Below, in pieces: positions 28,016 through 42,644 of a stretch of 64,000 nucleotides of DNA (positions within the stretch are counted from its first letter, which is position 1; each line of letters opens with the position of its first letter). The translations under genes were made by a program, and so were the position numbers. The notes below the pieces were generated by a model, which worked only from the letters and a program-made list of their open reading frames with translations, was not told the origin of the DNA and did not search any database. The stretch spans positions 1-64,000 of the forward strand of contig CAJBLH010000217.1 in assembly GCA_903953895.1 (NCBI GenBank), given 5' to 3'. This DNA comes from an uncultured Desulfobacteraceae bacterium. GTDB lineage: Bacteria > Desulfobacterota > Desulfobacteria > Desulfobacterales > Desulfatirhabdiaceae.

Positions 28016-29274
28016 AAATGACGGATTCTGATAATTCTCAACTATCCATTCTCAGCTCCCCATTGATTCCACCAGGATATAAGCAGACTGAGGTGGGGGT
28101 CATCCCGGAAGAATGGGAATCTCTCAATCTTGAAGCTGTCTGCTCAATGAAAAGTGGCGAATCCATTACGGAATCATTCATCGATGAGCACTCTGTTTAC
28201 CCTTGTTATGGAGGTAATGGTCTTCGCGGATACACAAAAAGATTTACGCATGATGGTGATTTTGCCCTTATTGGTCGTCAAGGAGCATTGTGTGGAAATG
28301 TGGTTGGCGTAACAGGGAAATTTTTTGCTTCCGAGCATGCCATTGTTGTCACACCAAAAGAATGGATTGAGATTAGTTTTTTAACTTATGTGCTTTCTGA
28401 AATGAATTTAAATCGATTTTCAGAATCCTCTGCACAACCTGGGCTATCCGTATCAAAAATTCTGAAGATTTCTATCGCAGTCCCGAAAAATAAAGCTGAA
28501 CAAAGCGCCATAGCCACCGCCCTCTCCGATGTTGATGCCTTGATCGAAAGTCTCGACAAGCTGATCGCCAAAAAGCGCAACATCAAGCAGGCAGCCATGC
28601 AGGAATTACTTACTGGCAAAGCACGGTTGCCGGGATTTGATGGAAATTGGGAGGTAAAAAAACTCGGTGAATTGGGAATTTTTCTGAAAGGATCAGGTGT
28701 AAAGAAAGAAGACGCAATCAGTGGTCACCTCCCGTGCATACGCTATGGGGAAATATACACACATCATAACGATGTCATAAGAAATTTCTTCTCATGGATT
28801 TCACCTAAAGTTGCCAGCAATGCTGTGAAACTCAGAAAAGGTGATTTGTTATTTGCCGGATCAGGCGAAACCAAAGAAGAGATAGGAAAATGTGTAGCTT
28901 TTATCGATGATTATGAGACATATGCAGGTGGTGACGTCGTTATACTGCGCACTACTGGCGTTGACCCAATTTTTATGGGTTACTATTGCAATCATACACC
29001 CATCAATGCTCAAAAAGCCAGCAAAGGACAAGGCGATGCCATAGTACATATATCTGCTGCCGCTTTATCAAGCATCCTCGTCTTGCTTCCACCTCAACCA
29101 GAGCAAACCGCCATAGCAGCCATTCTCTCCGACATGGACACCGAAATCGCAGCCCTCGAAACCCGCCGTGCCAAAACCCTCGATCTCAAACAAGGCATGA
29201 TGCAAGAACTGCTGACTGGCAAAACACGTCTCGTAAAACCGGAGGTCTCCCATGTCAACCATCCCCCGCTCTGA
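28012..29274 (+). CDS. hsdS: Type I restriction-modification specificity subunit S
   Basis: 420 residues with two target recognition domains (about 20-170 and 225-365), each followed by a conserved helical repeat: [27 protein letters not shown]...[10 protein letters not shown] and [27 protein letters not shown]...[10 protein letters not shown]. The two conserved repeats set the spacer of the bipartite target. I start at ATG 28012, which overlaps the previous stop and follows a GGAGAGGGGAGA box; the open frame reaches further back but inside the previous gene. The last 23 bases overlap hsdR. Confidence 0.94.
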
Positions 29275-32200
29275 ACGTTCGACCCAAAATCGTATCGTCG
29301 CCCTGTTCAGCGACAATAACCATCCGGATTGTCTTGGCTATGACTACCTCGGTGATTGGCACCAGCGGGAAAACAACCGGCATATCGAAGTGGATATGCT
29401 CAAAGCCAACCTCAAAAAACGGGGTTACTCGGACGCCCACATTTCCGCGGCCCTGCAGAAACTGGAAACCGCCGCCGACTGCACCGGCATAACACTCTAC
29501 CAGGCCAACCTGCGCACATATATGTTGTTGCGTTATCCGGTCAAGGTGCAAGTGGCGGTGGGCCGCCCCCACGAAGATGTCAACCTGATCGACTGGATCA
29601 CACCGGAAAACAACGATTTCGGGCTTGCCGAGGAAGTTACCCTCAAAGGCGGTTATGAACGACGGCCCGATCTGGTTCTTTACATCAACGGTATTGCCGT
29701 CGGGGTGATCGAACTCAAACGCAGTTCGGTCGAAGTGGCGGACGGTGTGCGCCAATTGATCACAAACCAGGAAGAAATTTTCAATCAAAGGTTCTTTGTC
29801 ACGGTTCAGTTCGTGTTTGCCGCCAGTGACTCCCAGGGATTACGATACGGCACAACAGGAACACCGGAGAAATTTTTCGTCGAATGGAAAGACGAGAACG
29901 GTCTCTGCAACACGTCCGCAATGTGTGCCGGGGCGTTACTCGACAAGCCGCTATCCCAGATGTGTCGTAAGGATCGCCTGCTCGATCTGATCCGTAATTT
30001 CATCATTTTCGATGCCGGTCAGAAAAAAGTGCCGCGGCCCCACCAGTACTTTGGCGTCAAAGCAGCCCAGGAACGGATTCTCAACAGAGACGGCGGTGTC
30101 ATCTGGCACACCCAGGGCAGCGGAAAGAGCATCTTGATGGTGCTCATCGCCAAGTGGCTGATGGAACAGAATCCGGATGGGCGCATCCTGGTTATCACCG
30201 ACCGGGATGAGCTGGATAAACAGATTGTCGGCGTTATGCAAAAGGCGGGGGTCATTCCCGAAGATGCCCCCTCCCCCCGAATCACATCTCGTGACCAGTT
30301 CATCGAAAAACTCAGAGCGACCACCCCCCGCCTGCTCTGTGCGCTCATCCACAAATTCGACACCGCCGACATGAAAGGTGAACCGCCGCCGATTTATGGA
30401 CACTTTTACATCTTCGTTGACGAATGCCATCGTACCCAAGGCGGAGAAATGAACAAGCAGATGAAACGCTGGATGAACGAGGGGACTTTCATCGGCTTTA
30501 CCGGAACCCCCCTGCTGCGAAAAGACAAAATGACCACCCGGGATGTGTTCGGCACCTACATCCATACCTACAAGTTCCATCAGGCCGTGGCGGACAAGGT
30601 GGTACTGGACCTCAAGTATGAAGCCCGCGACGTGCCGCAGCGGTTGACGTCCCAGACGGCCGTCGATGCGTGGTTCGATGGGAGAACCCGGAATCTGAAC
30701 AATTATCAGAAAGCCATTGTCCGCAAAACCTGGGCGACGCTGGAGAAACTGATGAGCGCCGGCGAACGCAAACAGCGAATTATTGCCAGCATCATCGAAG
30801 ATTTCACCCTCAAACCGCGACTGAACAACGATCGCGGCACGGCCATTCTGGTTGCGGCTTCGATTTACGACGCCTGCCATTATTACCGCCTGTTTCTAAA
30901 CACGAATTTTGGACCATACTGCGGCATCGTCACCTCCTACGAGCCGAACCACAACGCCATTTCCCGGGAACCCGCCAACAGCGATGAACGGTATAAATTC
31001 GACACCTACACCCACCATGTGCTGAGACATGGCCAGACCACCCAACAATACGAAGACGAAATCAAACGCCGCTTCATCGAGGAGCCGGCCAACTGCAAGT
31101 TGTTGATCGTGGTCAGCAAACTGCTGACCGGCTTCGATGCGCCGTCCTGCACCTACATTTACCTTGACAACGAACTGCACGACCACAACCTTTTCCAGGC
31201 CATCTGCCGCACCAACCGGCTGGATGGTGAGGACAAGGATTACGGCCATATCGTCGATTTCAAAGAGCTGTTCTCCGATGTTCAGCAGGCGATCGCGGTT
31301 TACAGCTCAGATGAACTGGATATGGAAGACGGCGGTGATGCCGAAAACAACGTTCACCTCAGAGATTGGCTTCAGGAAGGCAAGGCAAAACTCGATGCGG
31401 CACGGGAAGCGCTGAAGTATCTGTGCGAGCCGGTTCCCCAGCCACGGGAGATCGAGCAGTACATCCATTATTTCTGCGGTGACGCTACCCATCCCAACGC
31501 CCTGAACGACACCGAACCGCTGCGCATTCCGTTCTACAAGGCAGTGGCCGCTTTTGTACGCGCCTTCGCCGCCATATCCCAGGACCTGACCGGCGCCGGA
31601 TATACCGATGCCGAGTCGATTGAATTGAATCGCGAAACCGTATTCTATGCCGACATCCGGGCGGCGATCAAACGATATGCCGGCGAAGAACTGGATATCA
31701 AGCCATACGAATCGGATATGCGTCATCTGCTCAATACCTATATCCAGGCCGATCCCGCCGATCCGCTCGGAACAGTTGACCAGTATTCCCTGGTTGAACT
31801 GATCATTGAAACCGGCATTCACGATGCTATTGCCAAAAAACTCAACGAAAGAGGAAATCTCTCGAAAAATGCGGTGGCAGAAGGCATCATCAACAATGTT
31901 CGCAAGACTATCGTCCGCAATCAACTGACCGATCCCCGGTTTTATGAAGAAATGTCCAAATTGCTGGATGATTTGATCCAACAAAAGCGCGATGACACGG
32001 CATCCTACGAGGCCTTTTTGAAAGAGGCCGAAGCGTTGGTGATACAGATGGCCCAAGGGCAGTCCGGCCAGGGCATGCCATCTCAACTGCATGGAAATCC
32101 GGAAGCGACGGTCATTTACAATAACCTGCCGGATATTCTGGCGCAATCAGGCTCCGGTGATGAAATTCACGAAACACAAACCGAATACGGAAACCCCCGG

Positions 32201-32377
32201 CTCGAACTGGCGCTGCGGATCGATCATACCATGCGTGAGCAGGCACCGGCAGGATGGCGGGGCGATGACACACGAGAAAGACAGGTGTTGAATGCGCTTT
32301 TCCTGTTACTCGACCGGGATCGGAACGCCACAACGGCCTTGTTTGAAATCATCAAAAATATGCGCGGTTACGCATGA
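29252..32377 (+). CDS. hsdR: Type I restriction enzyme subunit R (endonuclease/translocase)
   Basis: A 1041-residue motor subunit. The N-terminal nuclease domain has [22 protein letters not shown] (PD-ExK motif, about 138-160). Helicase motif I is TQGSGKS near 288, motif II DECH near 391 and motif [12 protein letters not shown]-terminal assembly domain follows. GGAGG lies shortly before the ATG, inside the end of hsdS. All catalytic residues are present, so the system looks active. Confidence 0.95.
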
Positions 32378-33090
32378 CGGAGACCATCCAGATCGGTGAC
32401 ATATCGATTCAGGTCACCCGCAAGGCAATCAAACATGTGCATCTGGCTGTGCATCCCCCGGATGGCCGGGTGACGCTGTCTGCTCCGACGGACACGCGTC
32501 TGGAGGTCGCCAGAGCCTATTCCATATCCAAGCTGGGATGGATCCGTCACCAACAGGAGAAGCTTCGCGGGCAGGCAAGAGAAACCTCCCGCCGGTTTGT
32601 GGAGCGGGAAAGCCATTATTTATGGGGAAGACGTCATTTACTCACCATCGTGGAAGCTGACGCGAAGCCCCACGTTGCGGTCGATCATAAACGGATTACC
32701 CTTCACGTCCGACCCGGCGCCGACACGACCAAACGCGCTGAAATCATCCATGAATGGCATAAAAGTCTATTACATGCGTTCATCCCTGGGCTGATCGCCA
32801 AATGGGAACCGAAACTGGGTGTTAAGGTCACCGCCTATTTTCTTCAGCGAATGAAAACCAGATGGGGCAGTTGCAATCCCCCTGCCGGCCACATTCGGTT
32901 GAATACCGAACTGGTAAAGAAGCCCAAGGATCTGATCGAATATGTTGTCGTTCACGAGATGATCCACCTGCTGGAGCCCACCCACAGCGAACGGTTCATC
33001 ACGTTGCTCACGGAACACTACCCTTCCTGGCACGAAGCTAGAATGGAGCTTAACGAATTGCCCCTGGCCGCCGAAGAATGGCGGGAGTAG
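32374..33090 (+). CDS. YgjP/M48-like zinc metallopeptidase
   Basis: 238 residues of the WLM/SprT-like YgjP family. Zinc motif HEMIH at about residue 194 ([17 protein letters not shown]) supplies two His, with a third ligand probably in THSERF, and [10 protein letters not shown] is the family's other hallmark. The ATG overlaps the hsdR stop by four bases. Genes of this family often follow hsdR; the role in restriction is unknown and might be turnover of the R subunit. Confidence 0.9.
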
Positions 33091-33466: not shown

Positions 33467-34339
33467 TTATCTTGATCCGCCACCACCACCACCACCGCCA
33501 CCACCACCACCACCACCACCACCACCACCACCACCACCGCCACCGCCACCGGGACCGCCACTACTGCCACCGGAACCGGAAACGCCATGTCCGGTACCCG
33601 AACTACCGGAATGACTGCCCGTGGAACCGCCAGCGTTATGGCCACTGTTCATGAAATTATCATGAAAGCGCATCATGCCGTAACCATCCATCCCGGTTTT
33701 CAGTGCTTCACAAAGTGTTTTGGCTACCTCCTGGTGAGATGTTCCCAGCCGACTCATATCTCTGGCCGACATAAGGGTGGCGTCGACCAGACTTTGCGCT
33801 GCATCGGCCCGCATTGTTGTGGTTCGCTGATCGAGTACACCCAGTATTTCTTTCAGGGATTCAGCTTTGAGCCCTGCCGACATGCTTTCAGCGGCCATAT
33901 TTCCCAGAGATTGAACCCTGTTTTTGGGAACATTGTTCATATTCCGTACCTGTTGATAGGCGGTTTGATACCGATCCAGAACTTTCTGCATGGCAGCGAC
34001 AATCAAATCCGGGTTGACTTTTTTGGCTGTTCCTTCAAAAGCCTTGTTCAGAACGGGTTCAGGCGGCAGCCCGTCGGCTACGGTGTGTGTTAGAACCTGA
34101 TAGGCTGAAAGAATCGTTTTCTGATCCGCCTGGAGATCCAGAAATTGGGTCGTCAACCTCTGGGCATCTTCCGTATGTATGCCGTTTTCGATCAACCGGG
34201 CTGCTTGCGGACGAATAGACTCCGGAATTGAATTCAGATCGGTTTCTGCGGCACGCACGCCGGCTGTTGTCAGAAAAAAAGCCATCAGGATAATGGCAGT
34301 ATATATCCGGGCTGTTATTATCGTTCCTGTATCGTTCAT
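33467..34339 (-). CDS. Exported protein with C-terminal polyglycine tail
   Basis: 290 residues starting at ATG 34339 (MNDTGTIITARIYTAIILMA), overlapping the preceding lipoprotein stop by four bases. A signal peptide ends near AGVRA. The middle is helical and Gln/Ala-rich, without a domain I recognise. The last 60 residues are Ser/Gly/His-rich and end in Pro, then 25 consecutive glycines, then Ser-Arg. The tail is coded by a near-pure GGT triplet run. It is the last gene of the ECF sigma operon. Function unknown; a structural or surface role of the glycine tail is a guess. Confidence 0.8.
   Translation of the reverse strand: MNDTGTIITARIYTAIILMAFFLTTAGVRAAETDLNSIPESIRPQAARLIENGIHTEDAQRLTTQFLDLQADQKTILSAYQVLTHTVADGLPPEPVLNKAFEGTAKKVNPDLIVAAMQKVLDRYQTAYQQVRNMNNVPKNRVQSLGNMAAESMSAGLKAESLKEILGVLDQRTTTMRADAAQSLVDATLMSARDMSRLGTSHQEVAKTLCEALKTGMDGYGMMRFHDNFMNSGHNAGGSTGSHSGSSGTGHGVSGSGGSSGGPGGGGGGGGGGGGGGGGGGGGGGGGGSR
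33476..33550 (-). repeat. GGT triplet microsatellite coding 25 glycines
   Basis: Twenty-five glycine codons in a row, mostly GGT with a few GGC and one GGA. Triplet slippage would change tail length without a frameshift. Seen from the plus strand it is a CCA/ACC run. Confidence 0.9.
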
Positions 34340-34677
34340 GGTTCCTGTATCCCGGGGCTGTAGATGCACTGGCGTCCTCCCCAATCATCCGTCTGCTGAA
34401 ATCGGCATTCCGGTGTATAAAGACTGCCGTCAATCCTGAAAAAATAATCGAAAGCCTTGTCTTCCGGAAGATATAGTTCCCAGTCTCCGGAAAATGTCTT
34501 GTTCATGGAAACTGGCGCATATTGGTTCAGCGAAGACAGAAAAAGCACTTCTTTTGCGGCCGGCCGATTCAGACTGATACGAATCTCATGATCGTGATGC
34601 AGCGCAGGAATCGGATGACAACCGATGGCGGTTCCGGCGGCAACCGTCAGCATGACCATAATTTGAAATCGATTCAT
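34336..34677 (-). CDS. Lipoprotein with glycogen-binding-like (CBM48/AMPK) fold
   Basis: 113 residues. The signal peptide ends at a lipobox (TAIGC at about 16-20). The mature part (EIRISLNRPAAKEVLFLSSLNQY...FSGDWELYLPEDKAFDYFFRIDGSLYTPE) follows the early-set/isoamylase-N pattern of a CBM48-like domain, as does the exported half of the neighbouring anti-sigma factor. The conserved carbohydrate-binding Trp pair is not clearly present, so it may bind protein rather than sugar. Four-base overlaps link it to both neighbours. Confidence 0.75.
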   Translation of the reverse strand: MNRFQIMVMLTVAAGTAIGCHPIPALHHDHEIRISLNRPAAKEVLFLSSLNQYAPVSMNKTFSGDWELYLPEDKAFDYFFRIDGSLYTPECRFQQTDDWGGRQCIYSPGIQEP

Positions 34678-35234
34678 GTTCCAATGCGGATAATGGAATT
34701 GATGTTCCCGAAATCATCATCTTCGCTGAATTGCACCGTGGGATCGGCAACGGTCTTTTTTCCATCCAGAAAATAACTGTATTCGTATTCGCCTGGCGCC
34801 AGTTCGACCGTGACTTCCCAGTATCCGCTCCGGCCGGTCGATTTCATGGAAATCGGTTTCCATCGGGAGAAACTGCCGGCGATTTCCGCCCGTTGAACAC
34901 CTGGCTCGTAAATGACAAACCGGTGCGAAAATTTCTGTGATTTTGTTTCAGGCCCCATGATGAACATCACGAGCATGGCGGTAACCAGACCTGCAGCCAA
35001 CGATTTATACGGCCAGTGAAATGACCAGATGCGTTTGAATGAAAAAGCCTGAGATGCAGGATGCGGCATGGGACGATCGATCGACTGGGGGACGGTCAGC
35101 AGCTTTTCCTGCCTTAAGAGGCCGAGCGTTTCTTCCGTAAAAACCGGATCAGCATGAATGGTTTCCACAAAAACCGTTTTTTCATCCAGATTCATTTCGT
35201 TATCAATAAAAAGACTGATCAGTTCGTCTTTCAT
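34674..35234 (-). CDS. Membrane anti-sigma factor with CBM48-like exported domain
   Basis: 186 residues. The N-terminal cytoplasmic part (about 1-70; MKDELISLFIDNEMNLDEKTVFVE...TLGLLRQEKLL) resembles the short helical anti-sigma region. A single membrane helix follows at about 77-93 (LAAGLVTAMLVMFIMG). The exported part (about 102-186; RAEIAGSFSRWKPISMK...YWEVTVELAPGEYEYSYFLDGKK...NSIIRIG) matches the glycogen-binding/isoamylase-N fold. It overlaps the sigma gene by four bases. By position it should hold the ECF sigma factor at the membrane until the outer domain senses a signal. Confidence 0.82.
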   Translation of the reverse strand: MKDELISLFIDNEMNLDEKTVFVETIHADPVFTEETLGLLRQEKLLTVPQSIDRPMPHPASQAFSFKRIWSFHWPYKSLAAGLVTAMLVMFIMGPETKSQKFSHRFVIYEPGVQRAEIAGSFSRWKPISMKSTGRSGYWEVTVELAPGEYEYSYFLDGKKTVADPTVQFSEDDDFGNINSIIRIGT

Positions 35235-35776
35235 ATGCCTCCTTTCTTCAGGATTTCCCTGAGCTTCACGCGGGCCCGGTGAATTCTGACCTTGATGTTG
35301 GCCTCGCTGTTTCCGGTAATCTCGCCGATCTGCTGATAGCTGAGATTGCCGTCTCCGGTGGCCAGTGAAAGAATTTCGCGGTCATCGGGTTTGAGTTTCT
35401 GCATGGCCTTTACAACATGCTCAAACATGTCGCGAGATTCGATCTTTTCCTCAGTCGTGGCGCAACTGTCGGCAACTTCATCCTCCGAGTATGTGAAACG
35501 CTTGTTGCGCCGAAAATGATCGTTCAATGTGTTTCGGGCGATGCGGTACAGGAGGGGGTACTGGCAGGGAGCGGAACCGTAATGCTCGATATACCGGACA
35601 AACGATTCCTGCATCACATCCGCGGAAAGATCATGATCAGCCGTCATGCGTACCAGATAGCCGAACAGTTTGTCCTTCCCGTTGCGGTAAAATGCTTCGA
35701 TATCCCCCATGTAATGAAGTCCAGCCTGATTTTTTGTGAGAAAAGCTTCCACAGGGAGTGTTTCATGGTAAGACAT
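35231..35776 (-). CDS. ECF sigma-70 family RNA polymerase sigma factor
   Basis: 181 residues with regions sigma-2 (about 25-95; KLFGYLVRMTADHDLSADVMQESFVRYIEHY) and sigma-4 (about 125-178; LKPDDREILSLATGDGNLSYQQIGEITGNSEANIKVRIHRARVKLREIL), no sigma-3: an ECF sigma factor. An AGGTGAG box precedes the ATG. It is 55 bases downstream of a small exported peptide gene on the same strand, which carries an ECF-type promoter. I infer that the sigma factor drives that promoter and so its own operon. Confidence 0.93.
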   Translation of the reverse strand: MSYHETLPVEAFLTKNQAGLHYMGDIEAFYRNGKDKLFGYLVRMTADHDLSADVMQESFVRYIEHYGSAPCQYPLLYRIARNTLNDHFRRNKRFTYSEDEVADSCATTEEKIESRDMFEHVVKAMQKLKPDDREILSLATGDGNLSYQQIGEITGNSEANIKVRIHRARVKLREILKKGGI

Positions 35777-38070: not shown

Positions 38071-39546
38071 TCAGGATTCGAATCTGGTGTGTTTCAGATC
38101 GGTTTCGGCCTGCTGCCGCAGGGCGTTCAGGGATGACAGAACATCGCTGGAAAGCGGAATCGGACGATGATCCGCCAGAATCTCTCTGGTTTTTTCAAGG
38201 GCGGTATCTGCCCAGGTTTTCTCGCCTGCTGCTTGCCAGTTGTCCAAAATTCTGCGATTGCACAGATGGGGCTGCCAATGTTCTTTTCTGAAAAAATCAA
38301 ACGTGTGGTTGGTAGAGATGAAATCTCCCTGTGGCCCGACATCGTGGATTACGTCCAATGCCAGATGCTCTGTGTCGATTTCAAAGCCTCTGACCATGCG
38401 CCGGACGTAGCTGATGATCTCCGAACACATGACGAGTGCTGCCGGATGGCCGACCAGCCCCTGACCCAGATAACCCACATCGTGAACGAGATTGGCGCCG
38501 TCCAGAGCCGCCGTCATCAATGATGCGGTCCACTCCATGCTTGCTTGCGGGTCGATGCAGTGAGCATCGGTGACCCCGGCGGTTCCCCACATGGGGATTT
38601 GGTAAAAATGGAAAAGATCGGCGCATGCGGAAAGGGCCAGGCGATATTCAGGGCATCCATAAACACAGGCCGAGGTTTTCATGTCGAAGGTTGACATGCC
38701 GAATCCGGATATGATCGGCGCCCCCTTGGCGCGAAGCTGGTGCAGAACAATACCGCTCAGGGCTTCGGCATTGCCGAGGGCGATCGCTCCGGCAAGGGTA
38801 ACTGGCGCAGTGGCGCCGGACATCATGCCGGGGGTATAGTTCACGGGTATGCCATTATCGGCGCAGAAAAAAAGTTTTTGAATGGCGCCGGTCGAATGGG
38901 TCAGCGGACTCAGGGGTTCGGCATAATGAATGAGGATCGGTTTTTTCCGCAGCATGTCTTTGCCGCCCATCACTGCTGCAGCCATTTCGTAAATCACCCG
39001 AATGTCTTGACTGCCGGCAGCCGTATAGAAGATGGGTTTGACCGAATTTTCCAGTTCAGTTTTGAAAGAATCGATGTACATCAGGTTGGCCGGAGAATCG
39101 CAAGGCAGGGCGTAAGAGCCGATGAAATCAATGTCTGGCAGAGCATCCGCCACCCGGGCCGCGTTGGCTACATCGCAGAGCCGGGATGGTCGCATCCGGC
39201 CGCTCTCCATGTCATATGTCTGTATAAGATCGGTTCCCATGCCGAAATACGTCCGCCTTCCTTCCAGGCACATGGCTTCATTGCCCAGGCGGTTATAGAG
39301 GGTGATGGACGAGGGAGCGCTTTGGATGCATGCCTCCACCAGATCGCCGGGGATCAAAACGATGTTGTCGGACTTGACCCGACACCCGGCTGCAGCCAGC
39401 ATGTCAACAGCCTCCGGATACAGAACCCGGACACCGGCGGTCTCGAGCAGTTCGAGGGTGGCGCCATGAAGCCGGTTGATCTGATCGAGGGTAAGAAGCC
39501 GGTATGCAGGTTTACACTGCAAAGTTTCTTTATTCATCAACCGCAT
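38071..39546 (-). CDS. MttB-family corrinoid methyltransferase, no pyrrolysine
   Basis: About 491 residues of the trimethylamine methyltransferase (MttB/MtgB) superfamily. These transfer a methyl group from a quaternary or tertiary amine to a corrinoid protein. Family regions are seen (YNRLGNEAMCLEGRRTYFGMGTDLIQTYD, GMMSGATAPVTLAGAIALGNAEAL, MWGTAGVTDAHCIDPQASME, ANLVHDVGYLGQGL). The frame has no amber codon, so it is a non-pyrrolysine member like glycine betaine methyltransferase. I place the start at about 39546 (MRLMNKETLQ) or 39537, because upstream in-frame sequence runs through a perfect GGGCGACC palindrome that looks non-coding. Substrate unknown. Confidence 0.88.
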   Translation of the reverse strand: MRLMNKETLQCKPAYRLLTLDQINRLHGATLELLETAGVRVLYPEAVDMLAAAGCRVKSDNIVLIPGDLVEACIQSAPSSITLYNRLGNEAMCLEGRRTYFGMGTDLIQTYDMESGRMRPSRLCDVANAARVADALPDIDFIGSYALPCDSPANLMYIDSFKTELENSVKPIFYTAAGSQDIRVIYEMAAAVMGGKDMLRKKPILIHYAEPLSPLTHSTGAIQKLFFCADNGIPVNYTPGMMSGATAPVTLAGAIALGNAEALSGIVLHQLRAKGAPIISGFGMSTFDMKTSACVYGCPEYRLALSACADLFHFYQIPMWGTAGVTDAHCIDPQASMEWTASLMTAALDGANLVHDVGYLGQGLVGHPAALVMCSEIISYVRRMVRGFEIDTEHLALDVIHDVGPQGDFISTNHTFDFFRKEHWQPHLCNRRILDNWQAAGEKTWADTALEKTREILADHRPIPLSSDVLSSLNALRQQAETDLKHTRFES

Positions 39547-39564
39547 TCCTTTACCGTGAAAAAA

Positions 39565-39584
39565 GGGCGACCGGCCGGTCGCCC
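39565..39584. repeat. 20-bp perfect palindrome
   Basis: GGGCGACCGGCCGGTCGCCC, followed by CTACCG. It lies between the substrate-binding protein and the MttB-like gene. This resembles GTAGGGGCGACC-type palindromes that are scattered in many bacterial genomes. Confidence 0.7.
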
Positions 39585-39644
39585 CTACCGTCTTTGCGTG
39601 AGAAACAATTTCATTCATGGGGGCGGGACCCATGCCATGCGCGT

Positions 39645-40520
39645 TTATAATTGAAAGACCAGCGCTTCAGCATCGATCTTGCCGAGGACGGCCCCCAGCT
39701 CCCGCTGAATTTGAATACAGTTTTCAAGACCTTCGAGATCGATGCGTGCGTCCGGCTCGAGATTGGGAAGATGCCGCCGCAGTGCGCTGCGGAACACAGC
39801 CGGTTCCACGCCGAAAATTCGACTTCCCAGGGGGATGCAGGCTTCCGGGTCTGCGGCCATCATCTGGACGGACTTGCGGTAGCCAGTCATCAAGGCAGTC
39901 AGCAGAGGGCGGTTGTCCTGAATCCAGGAATCGGAAGCAAAGATTCCGCCCCACTGGTATCGCGGAAAGAAGTCTCCGACCCTTGCCAGTACATGAAAAA
40001 AACCGTTGCTTTCACCGGCGCTCAAGGCCGGTTCCACCATGAAGCCGGCATCGATACAGCCATCGGTAAAGCAGGCCGTATCGCCATAAGCCGTACCGAG
40101 CGCTATCAGCGTTACGTCATTGTCGGGATCGATGCCGCGGCTTTTCAGCAATCGGCGAATAAAATATTCATCGCAGCTTCCCCAGGACAAAATGCCGATT
40201 CTTCGGCCCCTGAGATCTTCGAGTGAACCGATGCCGGATCTTGCCGCCAGAAAATGATCGAGGCTCCGGATAAAGGTGCTGCCGATAATCCGGGCCGGGA
40301 GACCCTGAGAAAAGGCGGCCAGAAACGGGGGCAGGCCGATCTCTCCGACATGGACCCGCTGGTCGCGAACAGCCTGAAGCAATTCGGGTCCGCCGTGGTG
40401 GACTTTAATTTCCGGATATACCCCCTGTTGCTGAAAAATGCCTTTTTCCACGCCGTAGAACAGCGGGAAGCGCTCAATCCAGAATGAGGGCGCGCCCCAG
40501 AGAACAGGTGTCGGGTTCAT
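39645..40520 (-). CDS. NMT1/SsuA-like substrate-binding protein without signal peptide
   Basis: 291 residues of the NMT1/THI5-like periplasmic binding fold: FWIERFPLFYGVEKGIFQQQG, GPELLQAVRDQRVHVGEIG, LEDLRGRRIGILSWGS, then GFMVEPALSAGE. Remarkably, the protein starts directly at the fold (MNPTPVLWGAP), with no signal peptide or lipobox, and no permease or ATPase is adjacent. It may act in the cytoplasm, as a ligand sensor or carrier for the methyltransferases on both sides. It could also be exported by an unseen start, but no longer in-frame start with a hydrophobic segment is present. Confidence 0.82.
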   Translation of the reverse strand: MNPTPVLWGAPSFWIERFPLFYGVEKGIFQQQGVYPEIKVHHGGPELLQAVRDQRVHVGEIGLPPFLAAFSQGLPARIIGSTFIRSLDHFLAARSGIGSLEDLRGRRIGILSWGSCDEYFIRRLLKSRGIDPDNDVTLIALGTAYGDTACFTDGCIDAGFMVEPALSAGESNGFFHVLARVGDFFPRYQWGGIFASDSWIQDNRPLLTALMTGYRKSVQMMAADPEACIPLGSRIFGVEPAVFRSALRRHLPNLEPDARIDLEGLENCIQIQRELGAVLGKIDAEALVFQL

Positions 40521-40579
40521 CTTCGGATACTCCGATGCATGACATCTTGTCGGTTGATCTGGTATGCATGGGGGTACTG

Positions 40580-41962
40580 TTAATAAGGAAACTTGACCCC
40601 CAATGCTGCGATTTCATCTTTGATCCGTCGGTACATATCCAGATGTTCCTGCGTGGGAACGGCTTTGGCTACATCATAACATTCCTGGTATTCACTGCCC
40701 ATGGGTGCATCCACGGCATGGTCTTCGTAGGTGGCCAGCAATCGGTTGGCGATCTCGTTGACTTCTGCCCGGCTCATGCCCTGGTTGGCCACGGCATGGC
40801 CGGCCTCGATGCCAAGACGCGCTTCCAGCGGGGTGGCCCGGTTGCGGTATTTGTTGCGGGCCGACGCCATCTCCCAGAGATGCCAGCCCGACACCGTGGA
40901 AACCATGGCATGGACTGCCGTTTCCCGGAAAAGCATTTCGGTCATGGGCCCGGCATTGGCAAATCCGTTTGAGGTATAGAGCAGTTTGCTGTTTCGCGCC
41001 ATGGCCTGCCCGGCCATGGAAATCGCCCACAGCAGTTCCCGGGTGGTGTTGGAGCAGTAATTCAGATGAAAAGGAAAGTGCTGGTTATAAATGGCCCCGT
41101 GAATCATCAGACCGATCAGACTGTAGGCGACCGTGGTAACAGCCGTTCCTTCGGATCCGCCGCACCAGCCGCCGTATATGGCGCCGGTCAGGTTGCCGGT
41201 AAAGCAGCCATACTGGGCATAGTGCAGGGCGCGGTTAAGCAGGGTGTCGGCGGTCTTGAATTCGGTGAGAGACCCCACCAGCCGGGAATCGGTTTTCTGA
41301 ACGCCCCAGTTGTCATCTGAAACAGCGATCTGGCCGCTGTCGTGTTCGGCGGTGCCGACAGCCACCATGAAGGTGCCGGGCCGCCCCAGAAGCCGGGCCG
41401 CCATTTTCTGATTGTAAATATGCTGGATGCAGCCGCTGATCTCGCTGGGTCCGCCGGATTCGATCAGATGGCCGAAGGTTTCTTCCAGAATCGGGCCGCA
41501 GAGACCATCCAGAAGAGGCTCTTTTAAATAGGCCATGCACATGGACTGATGATATTTTTCATCCACGGTGATGTCCGGACTCATGATGCAGAAAGGGGGT
41601 GTTTTATCCTCGACCGTGCGGTGCTTCCACAGCCGGGCGTCTTTACCGCCGCCGACCCAGTACTGGTCGTTTGCCATGTAAAGCGCCTCCTTGATTTCGG
41701 CGTCGGTCACCTCGATGATGCGGTGAGAATCCGTGTTGTAATAACCGACATCCCGAAACAAGTCCCAGGCGGCTTGCCATATCCGGTCCGCCATGGCATC
41801 GTCGCTGGGGCAGGGGTTTTTGGGATCATATTTGATTTCGTATTGTTTGATGAGTTTTTTAAGCGTCGGCGTGAAGCGTTTGGGCAGAAAATCGTCTTCA
41901 TCCATGAATCTGCCGGTGCGTGCGCGTTCCAGTATTTCCCAGAGTCGATAGGCTGTCGCCAT
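40580..41962 (-). CDS. MtmB-like monomethylamine methyltransferase homologue, no pyrrolysine
   Basis: 460 residues, the length of methanogen MtmB (458), and full-length similar by pattern (YEIKYDPKNPCPSDDAMADRIW, LDGLCGPILEETFG, YGCFTGNLTGAIYGGWCGGSEGTAVT). MtmB carries pyrrolysine at 202; here residues 199-206 (MVAVGTAE) are ordinary residues and no in-frame amber exists. A changed substrate or mechanism is therefore likely. GGGGGAA precedes the ATG. It stands directly after the corrinoid protein gene, its probable methyl acceptor. Confidence 0.87.
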   Translation of the reverse strand: MATAYRLWEILERARTGRFMDEDDFLPKRFTPTLKKLIKQYEIKYDPKNPCPSDDAMADRIWQAAWDLFRDVGYYNTDSHRIIEVTDAEIKEALYMANDQYWVGGGKDARLWKHRTVEDKTPPFCIMSPDITVDEKYHQSMCMAYLKEPLLDGLCGPILEETFGHLIESGGPSEISGCIQHIYNQKMAARLLGRPGTFMVAVGTAEHDSGQIAVSDDNWGVQKTDSRLVGSLTEFKTADTLLNRALHYAQYGCFTGNLTGAIYGGWCGGSEGTAVTTVAYSLIGLMIHGAIYNQHFPFHLNYCSNTTRELLWAISMAGQAMARNSKLLYTSNGFANAGPMTEMLFRETAVHAMVSTVSGWHLWEMASARNKYRNRATPLEARLGIEAGHAVANQGMSRAEVNEIANRLLATYEDHAVDAPMGSEYQECYDVAKAVPTQEHLDMYRRIKDEIAALGVKFPY

Positions 41963-42005
41963 CGGGTTCCCCCTTTGTTGCAGATTTGAAAAATGTGATC
42001 ATGTG

Positions 42006-42644
42006 TCAGTGCGAAGTCTCCAGGATGGAAACCATGCGTTCGGGTGCTGATTTGGCATCGTAGCAGTACAGATCCGCTCCGATTTTATCGGCCCATAGCT
42101 GAGATGTTGGCGCACCACCGATTACGACCTTGAATTTATCCCGGATTCCTTTGTCTTTCAGAATTTCGATAATTTCCTTCTGACGCGGCATGGTGGTGGT
42201 CATCAGGGAGGAAGAGGCGATGAAATCGGCGCCCATGGTTTCAGCTTCCTTGACAAATGTCAGTGGATCGACATCATAGCCCAGATCCTTGACGACAAAG
42301 CCGCTGGTTTCCAGCAGCAGCTTGACGATATTTTTGCCGATTTCATGCAGATCGCCTTTCACGACACCGATAACGACTTTTCCCTTGCACTGCCGACCGC
42401 CGGCTTTTTCAAGATAGGGCCCCAAGACTTTCACGACACCGCCCAGGGCATCCCCGGCCATCATGATTTCCGGCAGGAATATGTCGAGTTTGGCGAAAAG
42501 CTCTCCGACATGCGCCATAGTCCGGGTGAGCATTTCGATCATTTCGATGGGGTTGGCGCCATTGACCAGCAGTGTTTCCGCAAGCTCTCGTGCGGAATCG
42601 GATTCACCGTCTTCTACAAATTTGCTTAACTGTTCCAAGGACAT
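42006..42644 (-). CDS. Methyltransferase cognate corrinoid protein
   Basis: 212 residues. A helical cap domain (about 1-85) is followed by a B12-binding Rossmann domain with the base-off/His-on motif GDLHEIGKN (DxHxxG), then ASSSLMTTTM and VVIGGAPTS. This is the MtmC/MtbC/MttC layout. The ATG at 42644 has GGGAGACC ahead; a 22-residue upstream extension is not supported. It heads the cluster with the MtmB-like, substrate-binding and MttB-like genes and would shuttle methyl groups to a methyltransferase not in this window. Confidence 0.94.
   Translation of the reverse strand: MSLEQLSKFVEDGESDSARELAETLLVNGANPIEMIEMLTRTMAHVGELFAKLDIFLPEIMMAGDALGGVVKVLGPYLEKAGGRQCKGKVVIGVVKGDLHEIGKNIVKLLLETSGFVVKDLGYDVDPLTFVKEAETMGADFIASSSLMTTTMPRQKEIIEILKDKGIRDKFKVVIGGAPTSQLWADKIGADLYCYDAKSAPERMVSILETSH

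Follow-up and report, generated by a model that had tools for sequence, protein, structure and literature searches.

MtmB1 of Methanosarcina barkeri, the monomethylamine methyltransferase known from structures 1L2Q, 1NTH and 1TV2, carries pyrrolysine at position 202. A homologue of about 460 amino acids that lacks pyrrolysine, MtqB, was described in 2026 from Methanococcoides methylutens Q3c, where it is encoded beside the corrinoid protein MtqC and acts on tetramethylammonium, choline and, weakly, monomethylamine, but not on trimethylamine or glycine betaine (PMC13044021). Another MtmB homologue without pyrrolysine rises in a bacterium grown on dichloromethane (PMC9768040). Pyrrolysine-free members of the MttB superfamily include the glycine betaine methyltransferase MtgB (2QNE, 9YCE) as well as MtpB, MtcB and MtyB. 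Here we describe a four-gene unit that joins homologues from both families, located in a window of 64,000 nucleotides (positions 1–64,000 of contig CAJBLH010000217.1) from an uncultured Desulfobacteraceae bacterium. That this unit is a corrinoid-dependent demethylase system is, taken alone, highly probable. The fuller proposal, that it forms the demethylating core of a pathway acting on a histidine derivative methylated on nitrogen, most probably hercynine (trimethylhistidine) or a compound of its type, is one to which we give about even weight.

The four genes lie on the minus strand in the order corrinoid protein (42006–42644), MtmB-like methyltransferase (40580–41962, 460 amino acids), NMT1/THI5-type binding protein (39645–40520, 291 amino acids) and MttB-like methyltransferase (38071–39537), separated by gaps of 43, 59 and 107 bases. 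All four reading frames are open and contain no in-frame amber codon, so that coordinates, strand and Pfam families bear out the four co-directional, amber-free genes of the original prediction. The genome (5.5 Mb in 315 contigs, estimated to be 100% complete) was searched family by family, and its contigs hold neither a second MtmB nor a second MttB. Pyrrolysine use was ruled out, as amber is absent from every MtmB and MttB of the genome.

The MtmB-like protein belongs to the MtmB family by profile (PF05369, 287 bits against a cut-off of 25) and by fold. Its AlphaFold2 model (predicted local distance difference test score, pLDDT, of 94.4) superimposes over the full length of M. barkeri MtmB (1l2q) with a template modelling (TM) score of 0.95 at 1.5 Å, despite a sequence identity of only about 27%. 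Val200 stands at the position of Pyl202, and valine occupies this position in all 32 members of the clade described below. Four further residues are changed, with Leu, Leu, Asn and Phe in place of Glu229, Glu259, Gln333 and Tyr335, which we take to act around the pyrrolysine of MtmB. Clustering with a known non-methyltransferase group would have refuted the original prediction; in both sequence and fold, the protein groups with MtmB.

The MttB-like protein is likewise a clear member of its superfamily (PF06253, 326 bits against a cut-off of 25), but it falls short of the profile for trimethylamine methyltransferase (TIGR02369, 418 bits against 525) and is free of amber, unlike pyrrolysine-containing MttB. 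A longer start at 39633 exists; relatives begin at the equivalent of 39537. Its alignment with MtgB is modest (225 bits). By analogy with the pyrrolysine-free members of the superfamily, the enzyme is expected to act on a quaternary amine. The corrinoid protein is of the MtxC type, with B12-binding (PF02310) and B12-binding_2 (PF02607) domains and a DLHEIG motif that matches the DxHxxG signature, and scores 191 bits on TIGR02370 (pyl_corrinoid), under the cut-off of 215. It is the likely methyl acceptor for both methyltransferases, judging from its domains and position.

A scan of 84,980 genomes returned 32 loci whose MtmB falls into one tight clade with the present protein (identity of about 70% or higher), comprising 25 from Desulfobacterota and seven from Spirochaetes, Aminicenantes and Anaerolineae. 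At 67–88% identity, the clade spans Desulfobacterota, Spirochaetes, Aminicenantes and Chloroflexi. Within the order, 13 of 146 genomes are other carriers (at least 72% identity). The carriers among Desulfobacterota include the cultured Desulfocicer vacuolatum DSM 3385 (L067) and an Olavius symbiont. In the MtmB tree, which was built without any MtqB sequence, the clade forms a single group on a long stem, with a Shimodaira–Hasegawa-like approximate likelihood ratio test (SH-aLRT) support of 100. Its neighbours are sequences from Asgard archaea and Thermoproteota (42–50% identity), and M. barkeri MtmB stands apart. A search for MtqB in plasmids and viral contigs found none.

These relationships bear on whether the unit is simply a bacterial counterpart of MtqB, with the MtmB-like enzyme acting on choline or tetramethylammonium, the MttB-like enzyme acting on a related quaternary amine such as glycine betaine, and any linkage to histidine utilization (hut) genes being incidental or due to shared nitrogen regulation. 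Among pyrrolysine-free MtmB proteins only MtqB has a demonstrated function, and bacteria and Asgard archaea are included in the clade published for it (PMC13044021). The clade studied here has Asgard neighbours and conserves a Met, a Cys and several aromatic residues on the pocket side, and Desulfobacterium converts glycine betaine to dimethylglycine (PMC6716910). However, the published tree places MtqB near the pyrrolysine-containing MtmB proteins (PMC13044021), other pyrrolysine-free groups of the order outscore the clade on the MtmB profile, and the recurrent hut and histidine-type neighbours presented below would not be expected for choline. The MtqB/MtqC system is archaeal, delivers its methyl group to coenzyme M, and has no described MttB, NMT1 or hut partners (PMC13044021). 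We regard an MtqB-like function as rather unlikely.

The corrinoid gene adjoins and precedes MtmB in nearly all loci that are not truncated by a contig end. An MttB orthologue (65–72% identity) lies near the clade MtmB in 14 of the 25 loci from Desulfobacterota, as a rule without a further corrinoid gene. This gene content suggests that both methyltransferases most likely load the same corrinoid protein, and in this respect the MttB-like enzyme appears to differ from MtgB-type systems. The conserved gene content supports two methyltransferases serving one corrinoid protein, which fits the proposed two-step demethylation of one compound. Other recurring partners include a GntR-UTRA regulator, an MtaA/MtbA-like URO-D protein, a RACo/AcsV-type activase, and a protein weakly similar to the MetH activation domain. 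Also recurrent are a molybdenum oxidoreductase with a ferredoxin and an NAD(P)-linked oxidoreductase, and an amino-acid-type ATP-binding cassette (ABC) transporter. Because the arrangement recurs with the same gene content in many genomes, it is far beyond chance, and a chance neighbourhood was ruled out.

The binding protein matches PF09084 (72.5 bits) and, as originally predicted, lacks an export signal. The frame upstream of its start runs 31 codons to a TGA without an ATG, GTG or TTG, and the N-terminus of the protein is not hydrophobic; a missed signal peptide was ruled out on these grounds. Orthologues, all of them signal-less, occur in four of 242 genomes of the order and two of 395 of the phylum, with the present genome counted in each. 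Five of them (the window, L098, L076, L082 and L169) accompany MtmB and/or MttB, and another (L158) lies beside two MttB genes, hutH, the transporter and the molybdenum oxidoreductase. None was found outside MtmB/MttB clusters in the 637 sampled genome slots. Since the orthologues are rare and confined to such clusters, the protein is a specific part of the system. The NMT1 domain is common to THI5/NMT1 and SsuA/TauA-type binding proteins, and THI5 is likewise cytoplasmic and has the same fold (by a weak match), but the protein is only distantly related to THI5 (24 bits) and belongs to a conserved signal-less group of its own. Its AlphaFold2 model (pLDDT of 67) was too poor for a fold search. 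The assembly of a pyrrolysine-free MtmB, an MttB and a cytoplasmic NMT1-like protein was originally considered unusual; the set itself is confirmed, but it recurs in many Desulfobacterota, and a function for the pyrrolysine-free MtqB has been published (PMC13044021).

Two observations accompany these orthologues. In L158 (8769–10022) and L076 (4468–5280), an amidohydrolase related to Xaa-Pro dipeptidase lies beside the transporter and NMT1 genes. A Spirochaete contig (JAJSAL010000135.1; L082 and L110) carries a catabolic island of about 35 kb with two different MtmB genes, two MttB genes, NMT1, IorAB, a coenzyme A (CoA) ligase, aminotransferases, a transporter and two molybdenum oxidoreductases.

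Histidine-type substrates are suggested by the genes that surround the system in relatives, a link that cannot be seen in the window itself because it is found on other contigs and in other genomes. In four of the 13 other carriers of the order (L038, L041, L043 and L053), hutH and/or hutU are no more than about 7 kb away from the clade MtmB, a proximity with P of about 2e-7 under random placement, and the GntR-UTRA gene is near the hut genes. The best match of this regulator is HutC, at a score under the cut-off. A close HutH subfamily (at least 66% identity) is present in seven of the 13 carriers and eight of 132 other genomes (Fisher P of 3e-5). A distant pair of corrinoid protein and MtmB (35–37% identity) lies within a hut operon in two Syntrophaceae loci (L115 and L121), in the order hutU-hutH, corrinoid protein-MtmB, and then a HisC-like aminotransferase gene-hutI-ftcD-fchA. 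Apart from these Syntrophaceae loci, hut genes were found at no other MtmB loci outside the tight clade. To our knowledge, ordinary hut operons do not contain corrinoid methyltransferases.

The bacterium itself encodes a complete set of HutH, HutU, HutI and FtcD, the proteins found near the system in relatives. On its contig C37, hutU, ftcD, hutI, an fchA-like gene, hutH, a ferredoxin gene and a molybdenum oxidoreductase gene are convergent with transporter genes, and hutU, ftcD, hutI and hutH all pass their NCBIfam cut-offs. The transporter and the molybdenum oxidoreductase are orthologous to those beside MtmB/MttB in other genomes. A formate dehydrogenase role for this oxidoreductase was ruled out by its score (328 bits against a cut-off of 666). 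By eye, the Cys/Sec-His pair that we take to be typical of formate dehydrogenases was not seen at the expected place. Five of the seven loci from outside Desulfobacterota instead have genes for an aminotransferase (HisC-like in four), for IorAB and for an ADP-forming CoA ligase next to the system, a combination that could turn histidine into imidazoleacetate. Taken together, the hut linkage, the layout of C37, the aminotransferase and IorAB neighbours and the HutC-like regulator make free histidine the likely end product, and we therefore infer that a methylated histidine is the likely substrate.

It might instead be argued that the demethylase set is of a general methylamine type and is carried along with catabolic genes to which it has no relation, the MtmB-like and MttB-like enzymes having no substrate in common. 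Genes for pyruvate kinase and phosphoglucomutase flank the unit in the window, and 11 of the 25 Desulfobacterota loci have no MttB near MtmB. The unit is also accessory in this lineage, since neither the two sampled genomes of the genus nor the one of the family carries MtmB. Against such a coincidence, the partners are constant across several phyla, the NMT1 orthologues have the confined distribution described above, and hut linkage occurs in unrelated MtmB clades. We consider an operonic coincidence very unlikely.

Several points nevertheless weigh against a histidine-type substrate. Close hut linkage is seen in only four of the 13 carriers, with several loci truncated by contig ends, and three carriers come from one family. 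For the enrichment of the HutH subfamily, the threshold was picked after the data had been seen and the carriers are partly related; HutH-like genes as a whole show no clear enrichment (P of 0.07). In the bacterium itself, the unit, the hut operon and the MtaA-like gene discussed below are on three separate contigs. The one pyrrolysine-free MtmB with known substrates, MtqB, works on choline and tetramethylammonium. Finally, IorAB and aminotransferases would equally suit other aromatic amino acids.

This last point, together with the ABC transporter and the Xaa-Pro-dipeptidase-like amidohydrolase of L076 and L158, fits another N-methylated amino acid, for example an aromatic one (such as the betaine of tryptophan or of tyrosine) or a histidine methylated on the ring and derived from anserine-like dipeptides. 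The catabolic genes that recur in the Desulfobacterota and Syntrophaceae loci are specifically hut genes, however, and we consider such a substrate unlikely.

For a hercynine-type substrate, the following route can be envisaged. The compound would enter through the amino-acid-type ABC transporter of C37. Acting on the substrate or on intermediates that have already lost some methyl groups, the MttB-like and MtmB-like enzymes would each methylate the cob(I)alamin of the one corrinoid protein, from which an MtaA-like (URO-D) or MtrH-like methyltransferase encoded elsewhere would pass the methyl groups on, finally to tetrahydrofolate. A RACo-type activase would re-reduce the corrinoid. Freed histidine would then be channelled to the hut enzymes in Desulfobacterota; in Spirochaetes and Aminicenantes, the aminotransferase, IorAB and the ADP-forming CoA ligase would degrade it. 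The NMT1-like protein, which lacks a signal peptide, is probably a cytoplasmic binder of the methylated compound and may be a carrier, a sensor or an accessory enzyme.

An activase and a methylcorrinoid methyltransferase were sought elsewhere in the genome, which does encode RACo-type activases (four matches), MtaA-like proteins (four URO-D matches) and MtrH-like proteins. On contig C53 (L148:17353 to L149:3336), genes for an MtrH-type protein, a URO-D protein, a corrinoid protein and RACo lie in a row that resembles an O-demethylase (Odm/Mto) system. Contig C36 (L150:10949–19401) carries a complete-looking methanol set of MtaA, MtaC and MtaB (676 bits for MtaB) with a RACo-type activase, in what is a sulfate-reducing bacterium. 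The same contig holds a trio consisting of a URO-D gene (L150:171–1103) followed by genes for a HUIPC-like thioredoxin-fold protein and a CobW-like GTPase (L150:1250–3019), and this trio lies between MtmB and MttB in L063, L066 and L067.

The MtaA-like URO-D gene carries an in-frame TGA in 11 of its 12 complete copies (L150 of the present genome, L060, L062, L063, L065–L068, L073, L074 and L079), and the protein sequence is conserved beyond the TGA. This codon aligns with the cysteine of the APGC motif, a zinc ligand in the structure of methylcobalamin:coenzyme M methyltransferase (4ay7). Straight after the TGA is an 8-bp hairpin resembling a selenocysteine insertion sequence (SECIS), in which two pairs are changed on both sides, and the genome encodes a selenocysteine tRNA (75.5 bits). 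On this sequence evidence, the MtaA-like protein is probably a selenoprotein. A text search of a 2026 review of the prokaryotic selenoproteome found no selenocysteine-containing MtaA-like protein.

These components also permit a more specific and decidedly tentative scheme, which we think rather improbable, namely an anaerobic route for ergothioneine and hercynine. The cytoplasmic molybdenum oxidoreductase would take the sulfur off ergothioneine, the MttB-like and MtmB-like enzymes would strip the methyl groups stepwise to histidine on one corrinoid protein, the hut enzymes would complete the breakdown, and the selenocysteine-containing MtaA-like protein would carry the methyl groups away. In the open-licence literature, we found no paper that joins corrinoid demethylation to hercynine or ergothioneine. 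The enzyme families themselves are known; we saw no description in that literature of the two paired on a single corrinoid protein, of a cytoplasmic NMT1 partner or of a link to hut genes.

Elsewhere in the window, inspection by eye noted a large DEAD-type open reading frame (29252–33090) that resembles a type I restriction subunit; the small open reading frame after it resembles a metal-dependent hydrolase. A predicted protein with a terminal run of more than 25 glycines (33467–34384) is encoded beside a sigma-factor-like gene (35231–35776).

For most pyrrolysine-free MtmB homologues the substrate is not known. With this locus and its relatives, the choice for one large clade narrows to a class of compounds that can be tested. 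Corrinoid demethylation is thereby tied to the hut pathway, and methylated histidines emerge as a candidate source of methyl groups, carbon and nitrogen for sulfate reducers. The cultured carrier D. vacuolatum DSM 3385 makes the hypothesis directly testable. If the ergothioneine/hercynine route holds true, this MtmB clade would gain its first substrate and MttB a new substrate class, and histidine betaines would have a sink in anoxic sediment.

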